This document shows positions 4,390-59,204 of a DNA stretch of 64,000 nt, piece by piece. This DNA comes from Chloranthus sessilifolius (taxonomy: Eukaryota > Streptophyta > Magnoliopsida > Chloranthales > Chloranthaceae). Positions within the stretch are counted from its first letter, which is position 1. Each line of letters begins with the position of its first letter. The notes beneath the pieces were generated by a model. The model made no database searches and had not been told where the DNA came from. It was given only the letters and a program-made list of their open reading frames with translations. The stretch is from NCBI GenBank assembly GCA_021018995.1, contig CM037591.1:2548001-2612000 (forward strand). Direction: 5' to 3'. The position numbers were made by a program, and so were the translations under genes.

Positions 4390-25710
<21,321 letters not shown>

Positions 25711-26464: not shown

Positions 26465-26543
26465 ATTTGGGGTTGACAAATATGCTCCATTAATTTGAGT
26501 CCTCGATCATCCCCTCTGTAGGGATTTATGCCCCCTGCTGACC
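26465..26543 (+). mobile_element. SINE 5' part, cut by the hAT transposon
   Basis: TAGGGATTTATGCCCCCTGCTGACC matches the SINE at 23561-23765 (positions 23641-23668) in two blocks. The SINE stops at TGCTGACC (26536-26543) and resumes at the identical TGCTGACC at 32638-32645. The promoter end is weakly conserved. Confidence 0.65.
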
Positions 26544-26984
26544 CATGGGTCAAAAAATCGTCTTCGCCCAATACGTATTGGTTTTGGACCTAGGTGGTAC
26601 GATGCATTGCCTATGTATCGTACCCCCTAAAAATAGGGTAATTATCGTCCGATAATCTTTTTCTTTTTTTTAATTTAAAAAAAATGAAATTATCGGACGA
26701 TACGGACAAAGTATTGCCTGTATCATCCGATACATCTAATAGTTTGAAATTATCGGGCGGGCCTCAGCTCTGTCTTTTTTTCTTTTGTTTTTGTCCTTTT
26801 CTGTTTGTTTTTTTATTTATTTTTTACTAATCATTATAAAAGCGGCAACGGATATGATTTTATATCCGTTACATATGTTTTTTTTATTTTTTTATTTGTT
26901 AAAACGTTGCAAAAGCAGCAACGGATATAATTTTATCTCTGTTACATTTGCTTTTTACAACGGATATTAGCGGCAACGGATAGT

Positions 26985-27165
26985 TGCAACCTGCTATAAA
27001 ACCCACCCGAGAATTCCTCTTCTTCACTTGCAAACCACCCGAGGATATCTTCTTTTTCTTCACTTGCAAATCACCCGAGGATCTCTTTTTCTTCTTTACT
27101 TGCAAACCACCTGAGGATCCCTTCTTTTACACTACTATACTTCTTTTTCTACTTGCAATTCACTA
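26985..27165 (+). promoter_or_regulatory. Candidate transposase promoter and leader with 37-bp repeats
   Basis: TATA-like CTATAAAACC (about 26993-27002) precedes four units containing ACTTGCAAACC and CACCCGAGGAT at a spacing of about 37 bp (near 27025, 27062, 27099; partial near 27150), in a pyrimidine-rich strand. Position inside the transposon and upstream of the transposase suits a promoter and leader. Function is inferred. Confidence 0.4.
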
Positions 27166-27600
27166 TATTTCTTATTTCTTAACCATCGGAGACCGAAATC
27201 GTAGACACCGGATTGTCACACTCATATTTTCGTCGAATATTTAAGAGAATGTATGATTTTTCATCATCTAACTTGTAATTTTAATTATTTTTTCATTAGA
27301 TCTATCATATTTATTACTATTTTTTTAAATTAATTTTTATTTATTACTAATTTTATCATTAGATCTACCATACTGCCTGGATGATGCTCATACTCATACT
27401 GCTTGAATGATGCTTATTCATCCTACGAAGTACTTTCAAGCTCAGCTACATAAAATTGAGAGGACTTTGGTGGAGGGCATGGGTAAAAAAATATCTTTTT
27501 TTTTTAACTAAACTTTTTTTTTACTAATTCTATTTTAAAACTAAACTTTTATATTTTGTTACTTATTTTGTGTTACTAATTTTGTGCTACTAATTTTTTG

Positions 27601-27775
27601 ACCTATGCATGTGACACATATCACGTGTGATGTGTTGCGACACATGTGACATGTGTCACGTGTGATGTGTCGCGACACATGTGACACAGTGACACAGGTG
27701 TCGCGGCATATGTAATGATGTGTCGCACATGTAATTGATGTGTCACACATGTGACACATACCCTATGACATATAA
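27601..27775. repeat. Cluster of short palindromes (TGTGACACATGTG type)
   Basis: ACACATGTGACA, TCACGTGTGATGTG and TGTCGCGACACATG recur about ten times in both orientations within 175 bp. The block lies between the putative promoter and the A-rich repeats of the hAT transposon. Confidence 0.85.
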
Positions 27776-27837
27776 ATTACACTAATTTTTTGTTACTAAT
27801 TTTGTAATACAAAGTTTAACTTTAAAAAAAAATTAGT

Positions 27838-28775
27838 AACACAAAAATTACTAATTAGTAACAGAAAACAAAAACAAAATTTAATTTAAAGAAAAAAAGT
27901 TTAGTTTTAAAAACAAATTTAAAATTAGTTTAGTTTTAAAAATTAGTAAGACAAAATAAAAAAATTTAGTCTTAAAATAAAATTAGTAAAAAAAAAGAGT
28001 TTAGTTTTTTAAAAAAAATTAGTAAAACAAAATTAAAAATAATTTTAAAACTCAAATTACTAATAAAAAAAGTTTAGTTTAAAAAAATAACACTAAAAAT
28101 TAAAAAAAAATTAGTTTAAAGAAAAATTAGTAATAAAAGAAATTAGTAACACAAAAATTACTAATTAGTAACAAAAAATTAATAACAGAAAACAAAAAAA
28201 AAGTTTAATTTAAAAAAAAAAAGTTTAGTTTTAAAAACAAATTTAAAACCAATTTAGTATTAAAAATTATTAACACAAAACAAAAAAATTTAGTTTTAAA
28301 ACAAAATTAGTAAAAAAAAAGAGTTTAGTTTTTAAAAAAAATTAGTAACACAAAATTAAAAATAATTTTAAAACTAAAATTACTAATAAAAAAAGTTTAA
28401 TTTAAAAAAGTAACACTAAAATTAGTAACACTAAAAATAAATAAAAAATTAGTTTAAAGAAAAATTAGTAACACAAAAATTACTAATTAGTAACAGAAAA
28501 CAAAAAAAAATTTCATTTAATGAAAAAAAGTTTAGTTTTAAAAACAAATTTAAAACTAATTTAGTTTTTAAAATTAGTAACACAAAATAAAAAAATTTAG
28601 TTTTAAAACAAAATTAGTAAAAAAAATGAGTTAGTTTTAAAAAAAAATTAGTAACACAAAATTAAAAACAATTTTAAAACTAAAATTACTAATAAAAAAA
28701 GTTTAGTTTAAAAAAGTAATACTAAAATTAGTAACATTAAAAATTAAAAAAAGTTTAGTTTAAAGAAAAATTAGT
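27838..28775. repeat. Three tandem copies of an A-rich unit of about 310 bp
   Basis: AACACAAAAATTACTAATTAG starts copies at 27838, 28148 and 28470 (spacings 310 and 322). Each copy continues through AAAAGTTTAGTTTTAAAAAC and ACAAAATTAGTAA words. The block lies inside the hAT transposon, upstream of the transposase. Only A, T and a little C and G; non-coding. Confidence 0.85.
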
Positions 28776-29013
28776 ATACTTTTTTAGGGGGTCCGATATA
28801 ATCATACAATGTCTATATATCGAACCGCCAAGGTTCAAAACCGATACATATCGGACGATACATATCAAATAAATTTTATTTTCAAGTATTATCTAAATGT
28901 TTTAATTTAGTCCAATCGTTTGGTCATTAATGCAGGTGAAAGAAATAAGCATGGTACGATCATCAGATTCAACCTGACAATACGGTACAGCAATAGATGG
29001 TGATAGACTCTGA

Positions 29014-32000
29014 ATAGATTGTAAATTTTGTGAAAAAAAATGATTGTGAGGAGGTATCACACGATTGAAGGAGCATTTGGCTCACGTAAAGGGAGAGACA
29101 GAAGGGTGCTCCAATGTACCCAGAGAGATAAGAGAAGAAGTCAGAGTCAATTTACATGCGGCTAAGGAAAAGAAAAAGGCAGAACCCGACCGGGATAGAG
29201 AAATGTATGAGAGAATAAGGATGAGAGATCCAGAGTTTTCTGCACCTGAACATGGAGATGATGAAGATGAGGATGAGGATATTGTGACAACGAGAGTCAT
29301 AAGGGAAAGTGCTAGAGAAGCACGACAGCGACGAGATCAAGAAGAAGTCGATTATCGGTTTCGATCCAGCTTGAGGGGCCCATCCATGCCTACTACTGGT
29401 GGTCGATCTAGTCATAGGCCACATGTTATTGATGATGAGGAGGAGGATATTCATGGCACTGTCGGGTTGCGTAGGTCAGCATTAGTGAGGGACACCAGGT
29501 CGTCTACTACAGGTCGTATTATAGGTCCCATGGATCCGTTCATGTATCGGACAGAAAGCTTAAAGCAAAGTAAATTAAGCACAATTTCACAGAAAAAATG
29601 AGAAAAGAGGCTTGAAAAATCGATTGCAAAGTTCATGATATACAGTCACATTCTAAGTCAAGTGGTGGAGTCACCGTACTTCAAAAGTATGATTGATACA
29701 AGTGCAGAAGCTGGTCTAGGAGTCAAAAAGCCTTCTGCATACGAGGTATCCCGGCCCCTACTAGATGATAAGTACACAGATATAGGAACTTACATGGGCA
29801 GCTTCCACGAAGTATGGGATGAGAGGTTGCACAATTATGTGCGATGGATGGACAGGTCTCATAAAGAAGAGTTTGATCAATTTTTTGGTCTATAGCGATG
29901 CCGGAACAATATTTCTAAAATCAGTTGATGCTTCAAAGTACGCGAAGACAACTGATTACCTCTTTCAACTAATGGATAAAGTAGTTGAAGATGTTGGAGA
30001 GCACCGGATTGTGCAGGTGGTAACAGACAATGCCACCAATTATAAAGCTGCAAGTCGTCAGTTAATGTTGAAGAGATGTCACTTGTATTGGATTCCGTGT
30101 GCCGCTCATTGTGTGGACCTCATTCTTGAGGATTTGGGAAAAAGAAGCAAAGCACAAACAACTATTCAGAAGAGAAGAATGATTACTTCCTACCTATGCA
30201 ACAGTGACAAGTTGGTGAATTTGATGAGAGACTTCACCAAGTACGAGCTGCTCCGGTCTGCGATTATACGATTTGCGACACAATTTTTAGCCCTACAGAG
30301 CTTGGTTAGATATAGGCATGAGCTGAAAAGTATGGTCTCGTCTGAAAAATGGAGAAAACATGAGTTAGAACTTTCACAAGCAAGGAGACCTACTTGTAAT
30401 GAAGTTGTCGACCTGATCTACAGTCCGCGGTTTTGGCCAGATGTTGACCGCCAGATCGCCGTCACTATCCCGTTGGTACAAGTGTTGAGGTTGGTAGATG
30501 GTGATGAGAAACTAACGATGGGGTACGTTTATGAGTCGATGGCTAAAGCCAAATTGGCTATTAAAACTAAATGTTCGACAAAATATAAACAATATTGGGC
30601 AATTATCGATAAGAGGTGGGATGCACAATTCTACCAGTACTTACATGCCGCAGGTATAACATGTTAAACTACTTATGTAGTGATTTTCATTCATTTATTA
30701 TTTTTTATATTATTCATTGTTTCTATATATTGATAAGATTGTTCATATTTGATGTATAGCGCATTACTTAAATCCGGTCTTCCAGTATACGCGACGCTTT
30801 GAGTTGACTGAGGTCGATGACGTCTACAGCTGTTTGCTCAATGTGATCCAACGAATGTTCCCTGAGTTGGCAGAGCAAGGTCAAGTCATAAGAGATGTGG
30901 GTAATAATACCTTATAAGTAATAATACAGGTGTCATATGATCTGTTTATTGATATGTAGGTTATTGATATATTCTGCAAGAGACATGGGTCATTTGGGAC
31001 CCCATTGGCGCAATCCTAAATTAAGTATGATAAACTCGCTGATTGGTGAATGCATTATGGAAGTGATGGCCCGATATTAAGGCGGGTTGCCATAAGGGTT
31101 TTATCGCAAACTTGTTTCTCGTCCAACTGTGAGCGAAATTGGAACACCTCTCTCATTCACACGAAAACAAGGAATAGGCTAACTACGAAACGATTGAAAA
31201 AAGTTAGTCTATTGTCACTACAACATGAGATTAAGGGTCAGAAATATGCAGAGAACTAATCACTGTAAGATTTTATATGAAGTCTTAGTTCATACAATTT
31301 TTATTTGATCTAATTGAAAAGGCATCAGACATATATTAATTCATCTATCATATTTTACCTTACAGATACTGAATATTTTGATCCTATCCAGTTGGATTGT
31401 ATATTCATGGAGGATGACCTTTTAAATCAGTAGATCGAAGAGAGAGAAGAGTCAGTGTTAGATACTGAGGACACCGCATGGCTGGATAATGCTGAAAGAG
31501 CAGCAGATGAGCAAGCTTCCCAACCACCGAGACGGAAACGAAGATTAAATCGTCACTCAGTTGTTGGATCTAATGACGAAACGCAGCCCGATAGTGATAA
31601 TGATGATGGAGGCGATGAAACCAACGTTGGCACTAGTGGTGGAGCGGATGATATTGATTCATATACTTCTGGAGGTATTGCCGAATAGGATGAAGACCCG
31701 CTAACAATATATGACACTCCTATATTTAGAGGTGGAGGGATTAAAGGAAGAGGAGCGTCATAATCTTATCAAACACCACATCCACCACCACCACAAGGTC
31801 CACAAGATGATGTGGGTTATATGACTTCTAGCTTTGGGGGATTTAGTTTGCAAAATACTTAAGATTCAACAGCAAGTAACTCATACTATCTGCCTCAACC
31901 AACCTATCCCGAGCCATATGACTTTATTGGTCAAATTTTTGGATGACCAACCTTCACCTATTACACTGAGCCATATTTGTCGCTAATGCCTCAGTTTCAA

Positions 32001-32114
32001 GGAGGCACACATGATCATGAGTATCAATATGGCCAACATTATAGGGAAAGCTCGTGCACCGATGATGATGATAACAAGGGCCAAGAACCACCACGAAATT
32101 CAATGTGGCTCTAA
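29014..32114 (+). pseudogene. hAT transposase (BED finger, DUF659-like core, hAT dimerisation), inactivated
   Basis: Order along the strand: BED-type zinc finger (CKFC at 29020-29031, then GGITRLKEHLAHVKG), an acidic linker with DEDEDED, the core with SAYEVSRPLLDD, MCDGWT, INFLVYSDAGTIFLKSVDAS, VVTDNATNYKAA and IPCAAHCVDLILEDLGK, an intron (30654-30759), HYLNPVFQYTRRF, and the C-terminal dimerisation block with YGSDGPILRRVAIRVLSQT and SSNCERNW followed by IHTKTRNRL. A low-complexity tail ends at TAA 32112-32114. In-frame stops: TGA at 29041, 29047 and 29599; TGA where the family has WW just before the YGSDG motif; TAG at 31686; TAA, TAA, TGA later. A one-base frameshift lies near 29820, between FHEVWDE and CTIMCDGWT. 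It cannot make a full protein. Confidence 0.9.
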
Positions 32115-32637
32115 AGTAATTAAGTTTTTTATTTATAATATACCTTTTAATTTTGATATTTAGTCATATATAATAAAAATTTGATCATTAGTTATGCACA
32201 ATGAAAATTAGTCATGTACAATGAATCAACTATGTTAAGAGTGATCTTACCTTTGTTGTGGACTTATATCCTAATATATTTTTGTTGTCTGTTAATAAAA
32301 TTTTCATTTATTAAACTATAAAAAAGAAATAAAAAAGTTGAAAGCTTTTAGTCGTAATTATGCATGGTCAGAAGAGGTCATACTTTAATTAGGGATCCGT
32401 CCTATTATGAAATATGCATTAAATAAGCTTTAAATAAATTTTTAAAAAAGTAGAAAAAAATAAAAAATCATTAAATTTATTTTTCTTAATTTTTTCATAT
32501 TTTTTTGGATTTTTTGAAAAAAAAATTAAAAAATTTAATGTATCAAACCGATACATTCAATATATCGCCGATACCCGATACGTATCGTCCTGGAGGTCAG
32601 GACGATACATATCGTTTTTCCGATTTTTTTATCCTTG

Positions 32638-32750
32638 TGCTGACCTGGCATATGTTAATCTAGGGCACACATGTGCCCCTCGGATTAGTCGGTTGCTCTA
32701 AGAGGCCCGGACACCCAGATTATCAAAAATATAAAATAAAATGGGGTCCT
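32638..32750 (+). mobile_element. SINE 3' part, right of the hAT transposon
   Basis: From TGCTGACCTGGCATATG the block runs through TGTGCCCCTCGGATTAGTCG, GTTGCTCTAAGAGGCCCGG, CCCAGATTATCAAAAA, matching 23664-23760 of the intact SINE. An A-rich tail follows. Confidence 0.75.
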
Positions 32751-32764
32751 AGAACTCAATTAGT

Positions 32765-33228
32765 CGGGTGCTCTAAGAGTGCACCCCTTTTTTTTTTCTT
32801 TGAGTGGCATTATTTGCACCCATTTTTTCTTGTGAAGAACACACATTATCCCATAAAAAATCGTTGATTCCCTTGAATCAGGCGATGGAGCTCGTTTCGC
32901 GTCCCAATCTTTCGTGCAATAGATCTTGCGATCATGCACAACTATCATTCGGTCATATCTTGATCCCAGTTGGCACACTTCCCCAAAAGTGACACTTAAG
33001 AATCTTTTCTTTCTCATGATACACTTATGATCACAATTATTTTTGGGAATTTGTGTCTCATGGAATCAACATGTGACATTCTGATAAGTGGGGCGAGAAA
33101 TGATGTTTATCTCTAATTTAAGAAAGTCAACTGTATTTTATGGGGAAATGTGTGTTCTTCACACGGGAAAACGGGTGCAAATAATGCCACCCAAAGAAAA
33201 AAATTTGGTGCAGTCTTAGCAACGCTCT
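32765..33228. mobile_element. TIR element with about 60-bp terminal inverted repeats
   Basis: The left side TGGCATTATTTGCACCC then TGTGAAGAACACACATT (from 32806) and the reverse complement of the right side TGGCATTATTTGCACCC then TGTGAAGAACACACATT (to about 33190) are nearly identical. The similarity extends outward through CTTTG(A/G)G to GTGCACC-like ends. The interior carries CCCAATCTTTCGTGCAATAG with ATCTTGCGATCATG, a block spread through this window. No target duplication was secured. Confidence 0.75.
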
Positions 33229-42105: not shown

Positions 42106-45100
42106 ATGCCGAGGACGAGGGCAAGAGCAAATGCTGCTGTGGCATCAAAGGCAAAGGAACCAGAAAAGCCGGCAGAACCTGAAAAGCAAGAAGACCCTGC
42201 GGAGCAAGTAGACCTTGATAATGATGCTGATGAGACAATGGAAGAAGAGGTTGACTATGAAGAAGTAGAGGAGGAGGTGGAAGAAGAGGAGGCAGAAGAG
42301 GAAGTGGAAGAAGAGGAGGAAGTTGAAGAGGAAGATGAGGAGGAAGATGCAGGCTCTAATGGAGGTGATGCAGAGAAAAGCCCTGGTGGGGATGAAGAAA
42401 TGGAAGCTGCTGACGAAAAAGATGAGAGTGAAAAGCATGCTGAACTTCTCGCTCTTCCTCCTCACGGTTCTGAAGTTTACCTCGGTGGTATTCCTCATGA
42501 TGCGTCCGAAGAGGATTTGAAGGTCTTTTGTGAGTCTGTTGGAGAAGTCGCTGAGGTAAGATTGTGTTGTTGCTATTAGTTTCAGTATGCTAATGCATTT
42601 TGTGTGAAGTTCATTAACATTCTTAGCTGGCAATAACAGGTTAGGATCATGAAAGGTAAGGATTCAAAGGAGAACAAGGGATATGCTTTCGTGACCTTCA
42701 AAACTAAAGAATTGGCTTCGAAGGCCATTGAGGATCTGAATAATACTGAATTCAAGGTAATTCCACCACCCTATGCATTGTTGACATTATTCCATGTTCA
42801 CATATTTCATCTTGTTCTGTAATATTGAAATTTTCTTTCCCTTTTGTTTCTGGTAATGGAGAAAGTTGCATTAGTTTTGACATCAACCAATTTAAACTCA
42901 TGTGTTCAAAAGTGACCAAACTGACTTGGATTGCATCATGTAGATTGTTGTTTCTTGAAACAGCTGGTTATGCTATCTACTGGGTACTTTACTGATTAAA
43001 ATAAATACTGGGTATTTCAGTATATGAATATTTTGTCTACTGCAACTTCTGAAACATGTACACTTTGGAAACCTTCATTCTTAATAATCTGATTTCTCGC
43101 TTGAGTTTATAGTTGCATCTCATTATCAGAACGTAGCTCTGAACTAACTGAAAATGATGAGTGATCAGTAGCACCTCATTTTCAGACCGTAAGAGGTCGT
43201 ACCTTGCTGCGATGGCAAGTGTTTCGCCTAAAGCGATAGGTTGCAGGTTCGAGTCCGGGAATCAACCTCTCCAAAATGGGGGTATGGCTGCCTACCATCT
43301 ACCTCTCCCACACCCTGCTGAAAGCAGAGGGTGGGGGCTTTGTGCACAGGGTATACAGTCTTTTTAACGTATATTCTGAACAATGATTAGCATTTCTCTA
43401 AACCAACTGAAAAAGTTCAAAGCTTGTTACTTTGCACAATGCAGTATTATCTTATTGTCATGTTAATAATCATTTTTTATTGGTAGTTTAGTGATTTGGA
43501 GAAAATGATACTGTTCAGTTATCTTTGAGAAAGTGGTTGCATCACTTACGGTTCCACAGTTCCTGATGCTTCTATCATGGGTCTTTACGGTAAGTTTGTG
43601 TGTGCATGTTTCTATATCAGGGAAGAAAGGTAAAGTGTTCTTCATCTCAAGCGAAGCATCGGTTGTTTATTGGTAATGTTCCAAGAAGCTGGGGAGAAGA
43701 AGATCTGAAGAAAGTGGTGACTGAGGTTGGCCCGGGAGTTAATAATGTGGAACTATTGAAGGTAGGGTGTTTCATTAAATTTTATCAATCAAGTAGTTCA
43801 TCTTTTCTCTGAGAACTATAATATCTAATAATTAAATATTAAGGTTGAATGTGATGTTTGATGCAAACACTGCTAGTCCATGTTTCACAGACCTGGGTAT
43901 TATACCCTTGATGAATCACAGTTCTCATTAATGTTTGCACTGCAGTGAGATCACCGAAATATTTACAATAGCTGTTTGCACTGCTAGGTTAAGCAGAAAG
44001 TGTGGTGCAGCCCAAGGTATCAACCTTGGTATTGGATAGCGGTCCATCTTGGACTGATACGTATCGGCCGATACGGAGACAGTATCACCGATACCTTATC
44101 TGTCTATATTTTATTTATCTTTTGAAAAAGCAAAAAATAAAATAATAATAATTGTATCAGTCAGTATCGGCTTCTACTGAGGCAGTATAGTATTGGCTGA
44201 TACTGACCCGTATTGATCCGATATTGATACCGATATTACCTCGATACCTGTATTGAGGTGGTATTGGTATCGGTTCTCGACAAACCTGATACAAGTCGTT
44301 GATAAGTATCAGTATCGGCTGAGTTTTGATAACACGGTGCAGCATCTCTACATCAAATATATGGACTTCTGTTGATACTTGTAATACATCTTTTGTTAGA
44401 GTTTTTTTTATATAAGATAATTAGAGATATTGTCCTGTTAAACTCATTGTTTTTATTACTTTTTTGGTCTAATATTGCAGGATGTGCAGAATTCAAGCCG
44501 TAACCGCGGTTTTGCATTTGTTGAGTATTATAACCATGCTTGTGCTGAATATTCAAGGCAAAAGATGTCCACCCCAAAATTTAAGCTAGACACCAACGCT
44601 CCAACTGTAAGCTGGGCGGACCCTAAGAATGCTGATTCTAATTCTACTTCACAGGTATAGTCTCTTAGTTTTTCTTTCTAGCTTGATTAATTCCGTAATG
44701 AGGAATTATAGTGTGGTATTGAGTACATCTAAGGTTTTAATATTCCCTCTGGGATAGCACATCTAAACATTAATTTGGGGACCGGAGCTGTCTGATGAAC
44801 AACTTTATTGTGATCAAGATGCCTATCACCTGAACTTGGCAATTGATCAGACGTTTATGGTTTTCAGATTGGTGCAACTTTATTAGCTTTGGCCCATCCA
44901 AGAGGTAAACTGTGGGATCGCACCAGTCTGATCAATGACTCCTTTTTGGATGGCACATCCCATCAATTTGGGGACTTGAGCTGTCTGTTCAATGACATCT
45001 TTGTGAACTCGTGTCTATCACCTAAGCTTTGCAGTTGATCAGATGGTTATGATTTTTAGATTAGTGCAACTTTTTTTTTCCAGCTATGGCCCATCCAGGA

Positions 45101-48248: not shown

Positions 48249-48489
48249 TATTTTGGCCATGGCTATATTTATGGTTGTGTGAATGGAAGAGGATATGACC
48301 GTGAATTCTTCAGTTGTCTCGTGTTTTTTGGCAAGTGATTTTCTACACTTTGTAGTTGAACTCTACAGTAACTAGTGGTATATTAAGTTTAGAGATTCTT
48401 GTCTAAGTTCTCAGTATTTATGCAAGAAGCTGACGAAGATTGGAAGCATCAGTTAATTTGTATCTCTTGGCCGCATGTTCCATAACCTG
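48249..48489 (+). other. LIF2: Probable LIF2-like 3' UTR
   Basis: Sequence after TGA is T-rich and without repeats up to the SINE at about 48490. No canonical AATAAA was picked out. Confidence 0.4.
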
Positions 48490-48790
48490 GGTGTTTGGGC
48501 CTCTTAGAGCACCCTACTAATTCCAGGGATACGTGCGCACTCCAAGTTGGCACGTGGCGGGTCAGCATGGGATAAAACCCCTAGATTGGTGATTCTAACT
48601 TATGTCTCCCACCTCTTGAGGCGGGCTTGAGGTTAAAACTGAGCCAGAGCTGTGGTTTAGGGTTTTTGGTTCTAACTTATGTCTCCCGCCTCTTGAGGCG
48701 GGCTTGAGATTAAAACTGAGCCAGAGCTGTGGTTCAGAGCCACTTACTCTAATCCTCTGAGCTACAGGTTCCAACCCGTGCCCTCTGGAT
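48490..48790 (-). mobile_element. SINE (23561 family) with internal tandem duplication
   Basis: On the minus strand the head GTAGCTCAGAGGATTAGAG is A-box-like. The tail GGGTGCTCTAAGAGGCC with CAAACACC (about 48510-48495) matches the 23561-23765 SINE. A 77-bp block starting TTCTAACTTATGTCTCCC at 48593 is repeated at 48670, making this copy longer than the others. Confidence 0.7.
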
Positions 48791-50054: not shown

Positions 50055-50378
50055 GGGAGGATGGTCACCATATGGTCACCATTCTCTCATGTTCCATGTG
50101 GCACTTGAAAGATTGTTTCGATGACACGTGGAGTTCAGGTGCATTGCTGGGATCATTTCTAAAAAATAGAAGAAAAAAAAAATCCACTGTCTATTTTTTG
50201 AACCATGAAATTTGCACTATTGAAACCCATCAAACTTTGACTTGAGTTTTTAGAAATAAAAATTTTAAAAAAATTTTAATTTAAAAATTGATCCAAACCA
50301 TCCACACGTACCACAAATAGTATTTTGAGTGTCATGTGGACCTCCACATGGACTTTGGAGGAGGGTGACCATCCTCCC
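50055..50378. mobile_element. MITE with GGGAGGATGGTCACC ends
   Basis: GGGAGGATGGTCACC at 50055-50069 and its exact reverse complement at 50364-50378 are the termini. The interior has GACACGTGGAGTTCAGGTG, a TTTTTTGAACCATGAAAT block and AGTATTTTGAGTGTCATGTGG. Non-coding. Confidence 0.75.
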
Positions 50379-50982: not shown

Positions 50983-51147
50983 CATTGTTCAAAATTCCGG
51001 ACAAAATCTTAAGATTTCGGCTAAAACGCATTGGTTTCGATCCTATCCGAAACAAACCCGAAATTATCGGTCAGACTTGTATGGAGACAAGATTTCGGCC
51101 GAAATTCAAATTTTTGGCCAAAATCCAATCGGATATTTTGATCCTTG
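50983..51147. mobile_element. Small hAT MITE, 165 bp, perfect 8-bp TSD
   Basis: The left end CATTGTTCAAAATTCCGG and the reverse complement of the right end CAAGGATCAAAATATCCG are inverted repeats. The flanks GCCCTAGC (50975-50982 and 51148-51155) are identical. The ends resemble 56945 and 58985, but the interior (TTTCGG/CCGAAAT words) differs. Confidence 0.85.
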
Positions 51148-56294: not shown

Positions 56295-56815
56295 TCCCAC
56301 CGTTCAGATCCGACCGTTCATGAAAACATTTCTGATATAGCCGTTAGTGATTGTTCAGTAACCGAAAGATGGAACTATTCGGTGTGTACCGTTGGATCCT
56401 TGCAACCGTTTATCGAATTGATCAGGGCCCTCTATTCTAAGGAACCAACAGACACAACCGCCCCTGAAAGGGTGCATCGAACATTATAAATAGATGTCAG
56501 AGGAGGGTTTTCAAGTACTTGCATATCTCGAATCCTATCATTGTGTCCTTTAAATTCGTGTGCCTACAAGAGCGATTTTGTGCGTTCATTTCGTTGGGTA
56601 GCACACTACAGTGCAACGTAGTGTGTGATAGATCGGTGCATCACCGATGCATCACTGTATCCTGGAAGCGAATTTGTTGTTATCTCGTTGCATAGTGGGG
56701 CAAATATTGTCTTAAAGACATCGATCTAATCGTGCCTGAAGCCATTTCCAATCTATTTGCATCATTTTCTGTGTAACCCACCAACAATTTTAAGACTATT
56801 TCCATGGCATAAAAA
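56295..56815 (+). mobile_element. Probable 5' LTR and leader of copia element 3
   Basis: Non-coding sequence immediately before the copia gag start contains a TATA-like ATTATAAATAG (about 56484-56494) followed by CCTACAAGAGCG and T-rich sequence. LTR limits and the PBS were not recognised, so this is an inference from position and the promoter-like core. Confidence 0.4.
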
Positions 56816-57362
56816 GTGATGAACCTCTCCAACACGAAGATCAATAAACTCAAATGCTTTAACGGCACCAATTTCAAACAATGGCAATCAAATGTACGCT
56901 TCCTACTCACGAACTTGAAAGTCGATTACGTAATCGCTATGGGCCATGGATCAAAATTTCGTCTGATACCGATACGTCAGGACTCACCGATACGATACAT
57001 TGAATGTACCGTATCGGTGGTTCCCATTCATTTACTGGACGATACATTCAATGTATCATCCGGTACTGTCCGATACCGATACATATTGTCCGATACGTAT
57101 CGGTTTTGGGCTCAGACATTACATATCGGTTTTCCGATATTTTAATCCTTGCTATAGACTCACCACCACCGGAGAATGAAGACGAAACACTTGAAGAAAG
57201 TAGAATCCGTACAAAATAGGAATGCAACAATTACACATGCAAAGGCTATATTCTCAATTCTCTTGTCGATTCTCTTTTTTATGTTCATCAACCATACAAA
57301 GACTACAAGGGAGATATGGGAGGCTCTTGAACAGAAATACAAAGTAGAGGAAGATAGCGTGC
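56816..57362 (+). pseudogene. Copia element 3 gag N-terminal part, split by a MITE
   Basis: The frame from 56819 reads MNLSNTKINKLKCFNGTNFK with QWQSNVRFLLTNLKVDYVIA, the copia gag/UBN2 start (FxGxNFxxWQxxVxFxLTxL). It is cut by the MITE 56945-57151. After it, two overlapping frames give ECNNYTCKGYILNSLVDSLF and EIWEALEQKYKVEEDS, the next UBN2 blocks. A 4.9-kb LTR element then splits the gene at VEEDS; it resumes at 62247. Confidence 0.8.
56945..57151. mobile_element. hAT MITE (GATACGTATC family), 207 bp, 8-bp TSD
   Basis: The ends CATGGATCAAAATTTCGTC and, reverse complemented, CAAGGATTAAAATATCGG are inverted. The flanks CTATGGGC (56937-56944) and CTATAGAC (57152-57159) match at 6 of 8. CCGATACGTATCGG is at 57090-57103. 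It lies in the copia 3 gag. Confidence 0.85.
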
Positions 57363-58521
57363 TGTCACGGCGTCGTTACTTTGTGCGCCAACAAGATGGC
57401 ATGGTGGCCTTGGAACTGGATGTTTGGCTAGCAGGAAGGCGGGCGGACCTTGGAGCTAGTTGTGTAGCGCGGAGGCACGTGGCCTTGCAGCGCGTGCGTG
57501 TTCCCCTTATATATTGTGCGACGGTGACTTGAGCTAGGTATAGGTCTAGTGAGGCGACTAGACGCGCATAGGCATAGAACTTAGTGCTCCACATAGGGGC
57601 ACGCGATGTGGTGCCAAGAGGGCACGCGACGTCGTGGTGCAATGAGGCACTTGATGTGGTGCCAAGAGGGCACGTGACATCCGGGTGCCATGAGGCAACG
57701 CCATGTGATACCAGGTGGGCACTCGACATGAGGCCATGAGGACTTCGCAACGTGGTCGCGACACGGTCGCATAGGATGATGATGCGGGGCCTCAAGGGGC
57801 GTGTTGGTGTGGAGGATGGCACTGTGTGTCACGGGCAGAGGTTCGTGTGCCACGGTGGTATGACAAACCAATACTTTTGAGGTTCTCCTGCTAGATGGCT
57901 CGAGGTGGTGTTTAGACCATACTTGGGGGAAGGGAGCTATTCCCCTACACATGGGGCCTTGCGTTGCTAGAGGGGCGCATGGGTCTCCTAGGCCTGAAAG
58001 GGTGGGCCTAAGATGTCGTTGCGGTGATGCCGTGTATCACCCAAGGTGAGGTTGTCATATGGGCACGAGCTATGCGTCGCGGTGCATATGGGGCGGCAAC
58101 CTCACGAGGGCACTCAAGGGCTACGTGAGACACAGTGGTGCACGCTAGCTGAGGGCCAAATGTTGATGTGTGCTGGTCGCGTGGGCCGCACACGAAGGTG
58201 GGCTTGGTTCAGTATGTCAGCGAGGCATGTATGGAATGGGACGGCATGATGAGCTGCATGCTACTGTCGCGGGCAAGGAACTAGTGCAGTACACAGGGCG
58301 AAGCTGGGTAGGCCAAGCAGGGCACTGAGGTGCTGGCATGCATGTCGCGAGGAGACACGATGCGTTGATATGGTCGACCTCAGGTGGAGGCAACTATAAG
58401 CGTGAGTTCCCGTCCTCTAGGCAAGTGGTATCATAGTTGATGGTTGGGTAGGCTGGCCTAGCTTGTGAAGTTAGGCGCCGCACGAGTGTGATATCCGGTG
58501 TCGAAATATTGTCCCATAAAA
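57363..58521 (+). repeat. 5' LTR of the pol-less element
   Basis: It aligns with 61035-62246 throughout: AAGATGGCATGGTGGCCTTG, TTATATAT with TGTGCGACGG, a minisatellite of GGCACGCGATGTGGTGCCAA-type units of about 24 bp (57595-57740), and GTGTCGAAATATTG near the end. Lacks the 8-bp TGAGCGCG present in the 3' LTR. Confidence 0.9.
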
Positions 58522-58984: not shown

Positions 58985-59204
58985 CATGGATCAAAATATC
59001 GTCCGATACCGATACGTATCGGATGATACGTATCGGTATCGGAGGTGGACCATACGGTACATTAAAAGTACCGTATCGCCCTTTTATATGTGTAATACCG
59101 GACGATACATTCAATGTATCGTCCGATTTTTCTTGTTAGAGTGCATCGTCCAGACGCACTGTTTTTGACCACGATACGCTTGGGTTCCGGTATTTTAACC
59201 CATG
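58985..59204. mobile_element. hAT MITE (GATACGTATC family), 220 bp, perfect 8-bp TSD
   Basis: The ends CATGGATCAAAATATCGTCC and, reverse complemented, CATGGGTTAAAATACCGG are inverted. The flanks GTTGCGAT (58977-58984 and 59205-59212) are identical. CCGATACGTATCGG is at 59009-59022, and a second GATACGTATC follows within 16 bp. It lies in the interior of the pol-less LTR element. Confidence 0.93.

Follow-up and report, generated by a model that had tools for sequence, protein, structure and literature searches.

A window of 64,000 nt from the Chloranthus sessilifolius genome contains a 6,094-bp hAT element (26544-32637) that, to judge by its sequence, is a dead full-length plant transposon of the DUF659 type lodged in a short interspersed nuclear element (SINE). 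The window also contains a 220-bp element, referred to here by its start at 58985, that is an old copy from a family of 230-bp miniature inverted-repeat transposable elements (MITEs). This MITE family evidently transposed very recently. All genome searches covered 2.17 Gb in 32 contigs.

A search with 58985-59204 found 39 other places that matched the full query at 88 to 89% identity (40 of 2,050 candidates were scored). We fetched 20 copies from the top of this list and used their consensus as the pattern, so neither the set nor the pattern matches represent family members of every age. All 20 were 228 to 230 bp long, and 11 were identical to the 230-bp consensus. Among the 190 possible pairs, 55 were identical and 104 were at least 99% alike; the outlier was L062, with 17 mismatches and 10 gaps against the consensus. 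Nineteen copies had exact 8-bp duplications and one had a 7/8 duplication, all 20 duplications were different, and the flanks showed no resemblance between loci. A 61-bp piece of the MITE interior occurred exactly 97 times, on contigs C1 to C16, compared with no occurrences of a reversed control. An exact interior does not imply whole-copy identity, as both L062 and L075 have it. L075, a family member that differs from the consensus, lies within the BED exon of a coding relative, where its duplication, taken from the printed ends, is GGTACAGC. The family is short, noncoding and present in many copies with their own duplications, as MITEs are.

The first-pass annotation described a complete-length hAT element inside a SINE. 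Its coordinates were exact to the base, and both ends, the exact duplication and the split host SINE were all borne out. The element has short terminal inverted repeats (TIRs) of the CA..G type, with CATGGGTCAAAAAATCG at the left end and CGATTTTTTTATCCTTG at the right end, and these are alike at 14 of 17 positions. We scanned the window for intervals with CA..TG ends, a duplication of at least 7/8 and a TIR of at least 11/17. Eighteen intervals were found, versus 2 to 14 in each of ten first-order Markov shuffles, which suggests that chance produced many of them. An exact duplication with a TIR of at least 12/17 occurred in three intervals, versus one in the ten shuffles combined. These three intervals were the 6-kb element, 58985-59204 and 10374-11377, the last of which is absent from the first-pass annotation.

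When joined, the flanks of the 6-kb element aligned with small gaps to a SINE copy at about 23551-23767 of the window (score 153; at most 38 in 300 shuffles). They also matched an opposite-strand copy near 48482-48580, less fully (score 103). All 39 genomic rows outside the window crossed the junction, the only exceptions being the two window halves (scoring covered 40 of 1,005 first-look candidates, and the best-scored rows favor unbroken copies). The first-pass reading depended on the SINE halves being contiguous in some other copy, and they were uninterrupted in 39 of 39. These 39 other rows are dispersed copies with a common body, as in a tRNA-derived SINE. A B-box-like GAGTTCGAATCC was seen by eye in the copy at 23560, and an Rfam scan of the whole window at gathering scores found nothing. 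Nearly all SINE rows cease matching upstream of 26519, with two extending about 6 bases more. Therefore, the host copy is shortened or strongly diverged there. Another inverted-repeat family is represented at 18624-19158 and 32773-33219, the first pair of copies being nested in the 18410 element and the second lying immediately to the right of the host SINE.

A read-through translation from the ATG of exon 1 contained, in order, zf-BED, DUF659 (PF04937, 3.8e-48) and Dimer_Tnp_hAT (PF05699, 2.7e-07; 30.7 bits versus a cut-off of 21.4). This agrees with the domain order (BED, core, dimerization) by which a former coding copy had been recognized, with the BED match below threshold. In an alignment with nine relatives, the D (DGW; CDGW), D (TD; VTDN), C.AHC and E (CERNW) positions were conserved. 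We take the aligned residues of CDGW, VTDN and CERNW to be the D, D and E catalytic positions. Because of four stops in the BED region, further exon stops and frameshifts near 29824 and 31199, the gene appears to be dead. A database search with read-through residues 230 to 760 returned 1,138 homologues. Among the 120 listed, all of which bear DUF659 as read from the list, none was more than 48% identical, the best being from Malania oleifera. The plant DUF659-type hAT genes LOC131159441 (Malania; 48% identical) and CKAN_00150000 (Cinnamomum; 44%) have DUF659, the dimerization domain and the conserved motifs in common with the window copy, and the Malania protein also has BED; the window copy differs in being broken. 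A PDB sequence search with the transposase core found nothing up to E 10. We built a core tree from 119 of the 120 listed homologues, the window copy, L010, L049 and L050, excluding L016, L018 and L028 because their best piece was under 240 residues. The window copy and its three genomic relatives grouped together with support of 1.0, and no outside group stood out as nearest (0.389).

The first-pass annotation predicted more 6-kb copies and many short copies with 8-bp duplications, and both sizes were found genome-wide. A left-end search gave 62 matches (40 of 1,920 first-look candidates scored), and a right-end search gave 39 scored places outside the window, with the matched part 85 to 90% identical (40 of 1,932 scored). 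Eight of the first 20 left-end loci were coding size (L009, L010, L011, L013, L016, L018, L025 and L028), although L013 and L016 were interrupted and extended beyond the fetched stretch. L012 retained the left 1 kb alone, and the other 11 matched at the ends only (L015 at the left end only). Elements at these loci were 310 to 6,719 bp long, and duplications of at least 6/8 were found in 14 of 20 (9 exact, 3 at 7/8 and 2 at 6/8). No such duplication was found for L009, L010, L012, L013, L015 or the outer element of L016. L027 was counted with the 6/8 pair at its left-end match, in preference to a 7/8 pair that scored better at another place in the locus. Other long copies had three exact duplications and one at 7/8. 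Among the next 20 left-end loci, L029 duplicated L028, and the other 19 of 19 were complete short elements of 400 to 1,323 bp, with 13 exact duplications, five at 7/8 and one at 6/8, and a median pairwise identity of 0.88. Copies with both ends, without which the first-pass reading could not stand, therefore exist as these 19 short elements and as coding-size copies. Across the genome, deletion derivatives with duplications spanned 310 to 2,946 bp. A second short hAT-type element, of 292 bp with the exact duplication GTTGAAAC, lies beside the locus's own element at L032:1628-1919.

Of 8,343 candidates for the core protein, 140 places were scored. Apart from the window itself, these were 77 to 87% identical to the window copy, and a hand count gave 27 of the 140, window included, with no stop in the core. 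In the first set, each of the eight long copies checked for coding was broken by stops or frame changes. Exon 1 of L049 and L050 was open, with breaks seen by eye further 3'. The long copies were 88 to 92% alike, evenly in coding and noncoding DNA, as would be expected of neutral remnants of a burst long past. We saw no sign of selection on the coding region in up to seven copies, with mean identity of 0.83 to 0.95 per 100-base step and coding equal to noncoding. Of the private changes of the window copy, 142 of 211 were C>T or G>A (4,689 sites). We also considered methylation-type decay by context, but the rates hardly differed (CG, 24/245; CHG, 15/185; CHH, 88/1,108), and we make no context claim.

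If the MITE family amplified very recently, then a working transposase exists or existed until recently. The best fit to the MITE ends among all elements compared was N16 (L016:2356-7970; scores of 121 and 72), a 5,615-bp hAT element of a sister subfamily with the duplication GTAACACA, which is nested inside a copy of the 6-kb family. L072 (5,658 bp, 7/8 duplication; 107 and 78) and L074 (5,776 bp, exact duplication; 101 and 72) followed, and the first 17 bases of L074 are those of the MITE. Scores were lower for L049 (66 and 47), L050 (48 and 41) and the 6-kb element (33 and 45). L072 has one stop in exon 1, and L074, by eye, has a stop in the C-terminal part. These end comparisons suggest that the helper transposase most likely came from the N16-like sister subfamily. 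A hAT element of a different subfamily, with its coding copy outside the scored places, could also have driven the MITE, but we think this rather unlikely. It would fit with our finding no intact MITE source, nor any coding copy with MITE-identical ends, among the coding copies scored, which were the best candidates alone. However, N16, L072 and L074 all match both MITE ends better than the 6-kb element and L049 do, and L074 shares its terminal 17 bp.

The short elements of the window appear to form at least three groups. About 110 bp of 56945 matched the right end of the 6-kb element (score 70; shuffles, at most 28), with a score of 65 for N16. The left end of 58985 scored 111 with N16 versus 33 to 34 with the 6-kb element. 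The 18410, 19985 and 44012 elements were nearest to each other (78, 84 and 168) and scored at most 38 with the 6-kb element, and 18410 scored 67 with N16. Inverted-repeat support for 44012 and 19985 is weak. For 50983, no score with the 6-kb element rose above shuffles, and the likeness was confined to the outermost 19 bp or so. The first-pass annotation saw a source-and-satellite family within the 64 kb. This survives in part, in that genomic copies of both sizes exist, but the local short elements are not shown to be satellites of the 6-kb copy, with which only 56945 shares a long end. Similarly, 50983, 56945 and 58985 do have outer ends alike, as it proposed, but the extended match to the 6-kb element is limited to 56945, whereas 58985 fits N16 and 50983 has none. 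The 18410, 19985 and 44012 trio stands as a group, but not as close kin of the 6-kb element.

We regard it as improbable that the 6-kb element or its immediate family is the direct source of all of these short elements. They do have an end type and 8-bp duplications in common, most have CGATAC palindromes, and 56945 has its long right-end match; the genomic derivatives, mostly 400 to 600 bp, match the left end over about 110 bp at 86 to 91% identity. However, the sister subfamily fits 58985 better and 56945 nearly equally, and it also matches 18410, whereas 19985, 44012 and 50983 have no extended match to the 6-kb element. As for the identical 230-bp copies, it is very improbable that gene conversion or segmental duplication kept them alike without recent transposition, because despite the identity itself and the close spacing of some few among the 97 exact places (e.g., on C2, C10 and C12), which might reflect local duplication, the fetched copies have their own, different duplications and unrelated flanks.

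The window contains 55 CGATAC/GTATCG motifs versus 11.2 expected (maximum of 19 in 30 shuffles). Of these, 49 fall in six of the eight window elements tested, and there are none in 50983 or 10374. The motifs cluster within 300 bp of both ends in eight of eight long elements, from both subfamilies. Positions 1256 to 1437 of the L049 element form an internal block with 19 of these motifs, perhaps a nested short element. By analogy, the CGATAC repeats are predicted to be binding sites of the BED domain. We did not find CGATACGTATCG in the literature searched. Of 30 exact duplications, 18 had T at position 2 (p 0.001) and 17 had A at position 7 (p 0.004), both p values being uncorrected; the 20 young-family duplications lie outside this test. 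Hermes is an insect element. According to the part of its description available, its BED domains hold short subterminal repeats, and it uses an nTnnnnAn target with an 8-bp duplication (PMC10368747). The T2/A7 preference is thus as in the window family, whereas CGATAC binding here would be by analogy.

Table 1. Features of the 6-kb element, its host SINE and the short elements in the window.
Feature	Position	Strand	Evidence
Left host SINE piece, part recognizable by BLAST	26519..26543	+	39/39 non-window rows cross junction
Left 8-bp target-site duplication TGCTGACC	26536..26543		Exact match to 32638-32645
Complete-length, apparently coding-dead hAT element, 6,094 bp	26544..32637	+	TIR 14/17, exact 8-bp duplication, near-complete copies elsewhere
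Left TIR CATGGGTCAAAAAATCG	26544..26560	+	14/17 vs right end
Left subterminal block, repeated inverted at 28781-28858	26564..26633	+	Alignment score 55 vs at most 27 in 500 shuffles
A-rich tandem repeats within the element, with about 2 copies of a 306-bp unit at 28177-28776	27938..28776	+	TRF; long copies match here repeatedly
Internal inverted copy of left subterminal block, two CGATAC motifs, just 5' of transposase ATG	28781..28858	-	Alignment
Transposase exon 1 (ATG at 28951): four in-frame stops in BED zinc-finger region and a fifth at about 29599, DUF659 core, frameshift near 29824	28951..30653	+	Pfam, three-frame translation, relatives' alignment
Inferred intron 1 (GT..AG)	30654..30759	+	LHAA-x-YLNP continuous in relatives; sequence
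Transposase exons, hAT dimerization region, inferred intron 30901-30959, frameshift near 31199, right limit uncertain	30760..31262	+	Dimer_Tnp_hAT 2.7e-07 on read-through
C-terminal exon ending ...NSMWL stop (end approximate), several in-frame stops	31366..32116	+	Three-frame translation; first part aligned with relatives
Right TIR	32621..32637	-	14/17 vs left end
Right 8-bp target-site duplication TGCTGACC	32638..32645		Exact match to 26536-26543
Right host SINE piece	32646..32744	+	Flank alignment, genomic rows
Nonautonomous hAT-type, second group, other repeat nested inside	18410..19384	+	Exact TTCTGAAG duplication, TIR 10/17, group scores
Nonautonomous, second group	19985..20269	+	Duplication 6/8, TIR 9/17, score 168 to 44012
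Nonautonomous, second group, reverse orientation	44012..44335	-	Exact GGTGCAGC duplication, TIR 5/17
Nonautonomous hAT-type, third group, 165 bp	50983..51147	+	Exact GCCCTAGC duplication, TIR 11/17, no CGATAC
Nonautonomous relative, 207 bp, closest of short ones to 6-kb right end	56945..57151	+	TIR 14/17, duplication 6/8, right-end score 70; N16 65
Old member of young 230-bp MITE family, 220 bp	58985..59204	+	Exact GTTGCGAT duplication, TIR 14/17, 82-86% to 20 fetched copies

Further features were seen in the window. The interval at 10374-11377 is a hAT-type nonautonomous element of 1,004 bp, with the exact duplication CTGAAAAC and an inverted repeat of 13/17; its end scores with the 6-kb family and the short relatives were at most 40. 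By eye, ABC-transporter-like exon frames lie at 17877-20663, and 18410 and 19985 would fall in introns. A copia-like gag frame at 56813-57532 is apparently split by 56945, again by eye. CATGTGG-type duplicated flanks at 24617-24906 and 50102-50331 perhaps belong to another repeat family, but shuffles also yield such intervals.

The duplications of the rice elements nDart1, dTok and nDaiZ are presumably of the same length as those here. These are short nonautonomous hATs mobilized in trans; movement was observed there, whereas here it would follow from the identical copies (available part of PMC12595863). In the same part of that 2025 review, a table of plant MITEs shown moving has nine rows, with three hAT elements, all from rice (PMC12595863). 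As far as the accessible text of PMC2528002 goes, the grapevine Hatvine families are hATs of 2.9 to 5.5 kb with 8-bp duplications, and both complete and deleted elements are high copy, as here, a likeness to another species by description only. Hatvine-1 has 125 copies with more than 90% of the transposase, and so a high copy number of a full-length hAT is by itself ordinary (PMC2528002, same portion). BniHAT-1 and BniHAT-2 of Brassica nigra, another host likened by description only, are high-copy plant hAT MITEs (PMC7385995, in part). Taken alone, the 6-kb element is ordinary.

We consider the following explanation, taken whole, to be very probable. The BED finger of an active transposase would hold CGATAC repeats near both ends of the element, and the enzyme would cut at the ends and insert with an 8-bp duplication. 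The 6-kb copy landed in the SINE and then decayed mainly by C>T and G>A change. Its family comprises two or more subfamilies, and many of the coding copies are broken. Elements with internal deletions that retained their ends, the MITEs, would have been moved in trans, and the 230-bp family of 58985 amplified so recently that many copies stay identical. Several observations fit this less well. The zf-BED match, at 16.2 bits, is under the Pfam cut-off of 20.6, and the matched region has four stops. Of the elements tested, six of six of this subfamily have the internal CGATAC block 5' of the ATG, but two of two of the sister subfamily lack it. The ends of sister elements are similar, not identical, to those of the young MITE, and L073 (5,784 bp; 116 and 39) and L071 (4,946 bp; 29 and 54) each fit it at one end. 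No coding copy with near-identical relatives came to light among the places scored. A search with L050 exon 1 (77 of 10,485 candidates scored) found nothing above 87% over the whole exon and one partial row at 89%, and exon 1 had no stops in only three of its 78 rows (L050, L049 and L074). We had also considered that this internal block might be regulatory, but because it is missing in both sister elements tested, no such role can be claimed; it is also conserved no better than its surroundings.

The useful part of these findings is the young MITE family, not the 6-kb element. We suggest tentatively, at somewhat less than even confidence, that the plant, which has a large genome, is amid or just past a burst of the 230-bp MITE, with an N16-like DUF659 hAT as the driver and almost none of the working copies of that hAT remaining. 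If the suggestion is true, then this would be a natural two-component system caught near the death of its helper and the halt of its satellite. As another plant with identical hAT MITE copies, C. sessilifolius would offer a test of how satellites persist beyond the loss of their helper, and the young copies would be ready insertion markers.

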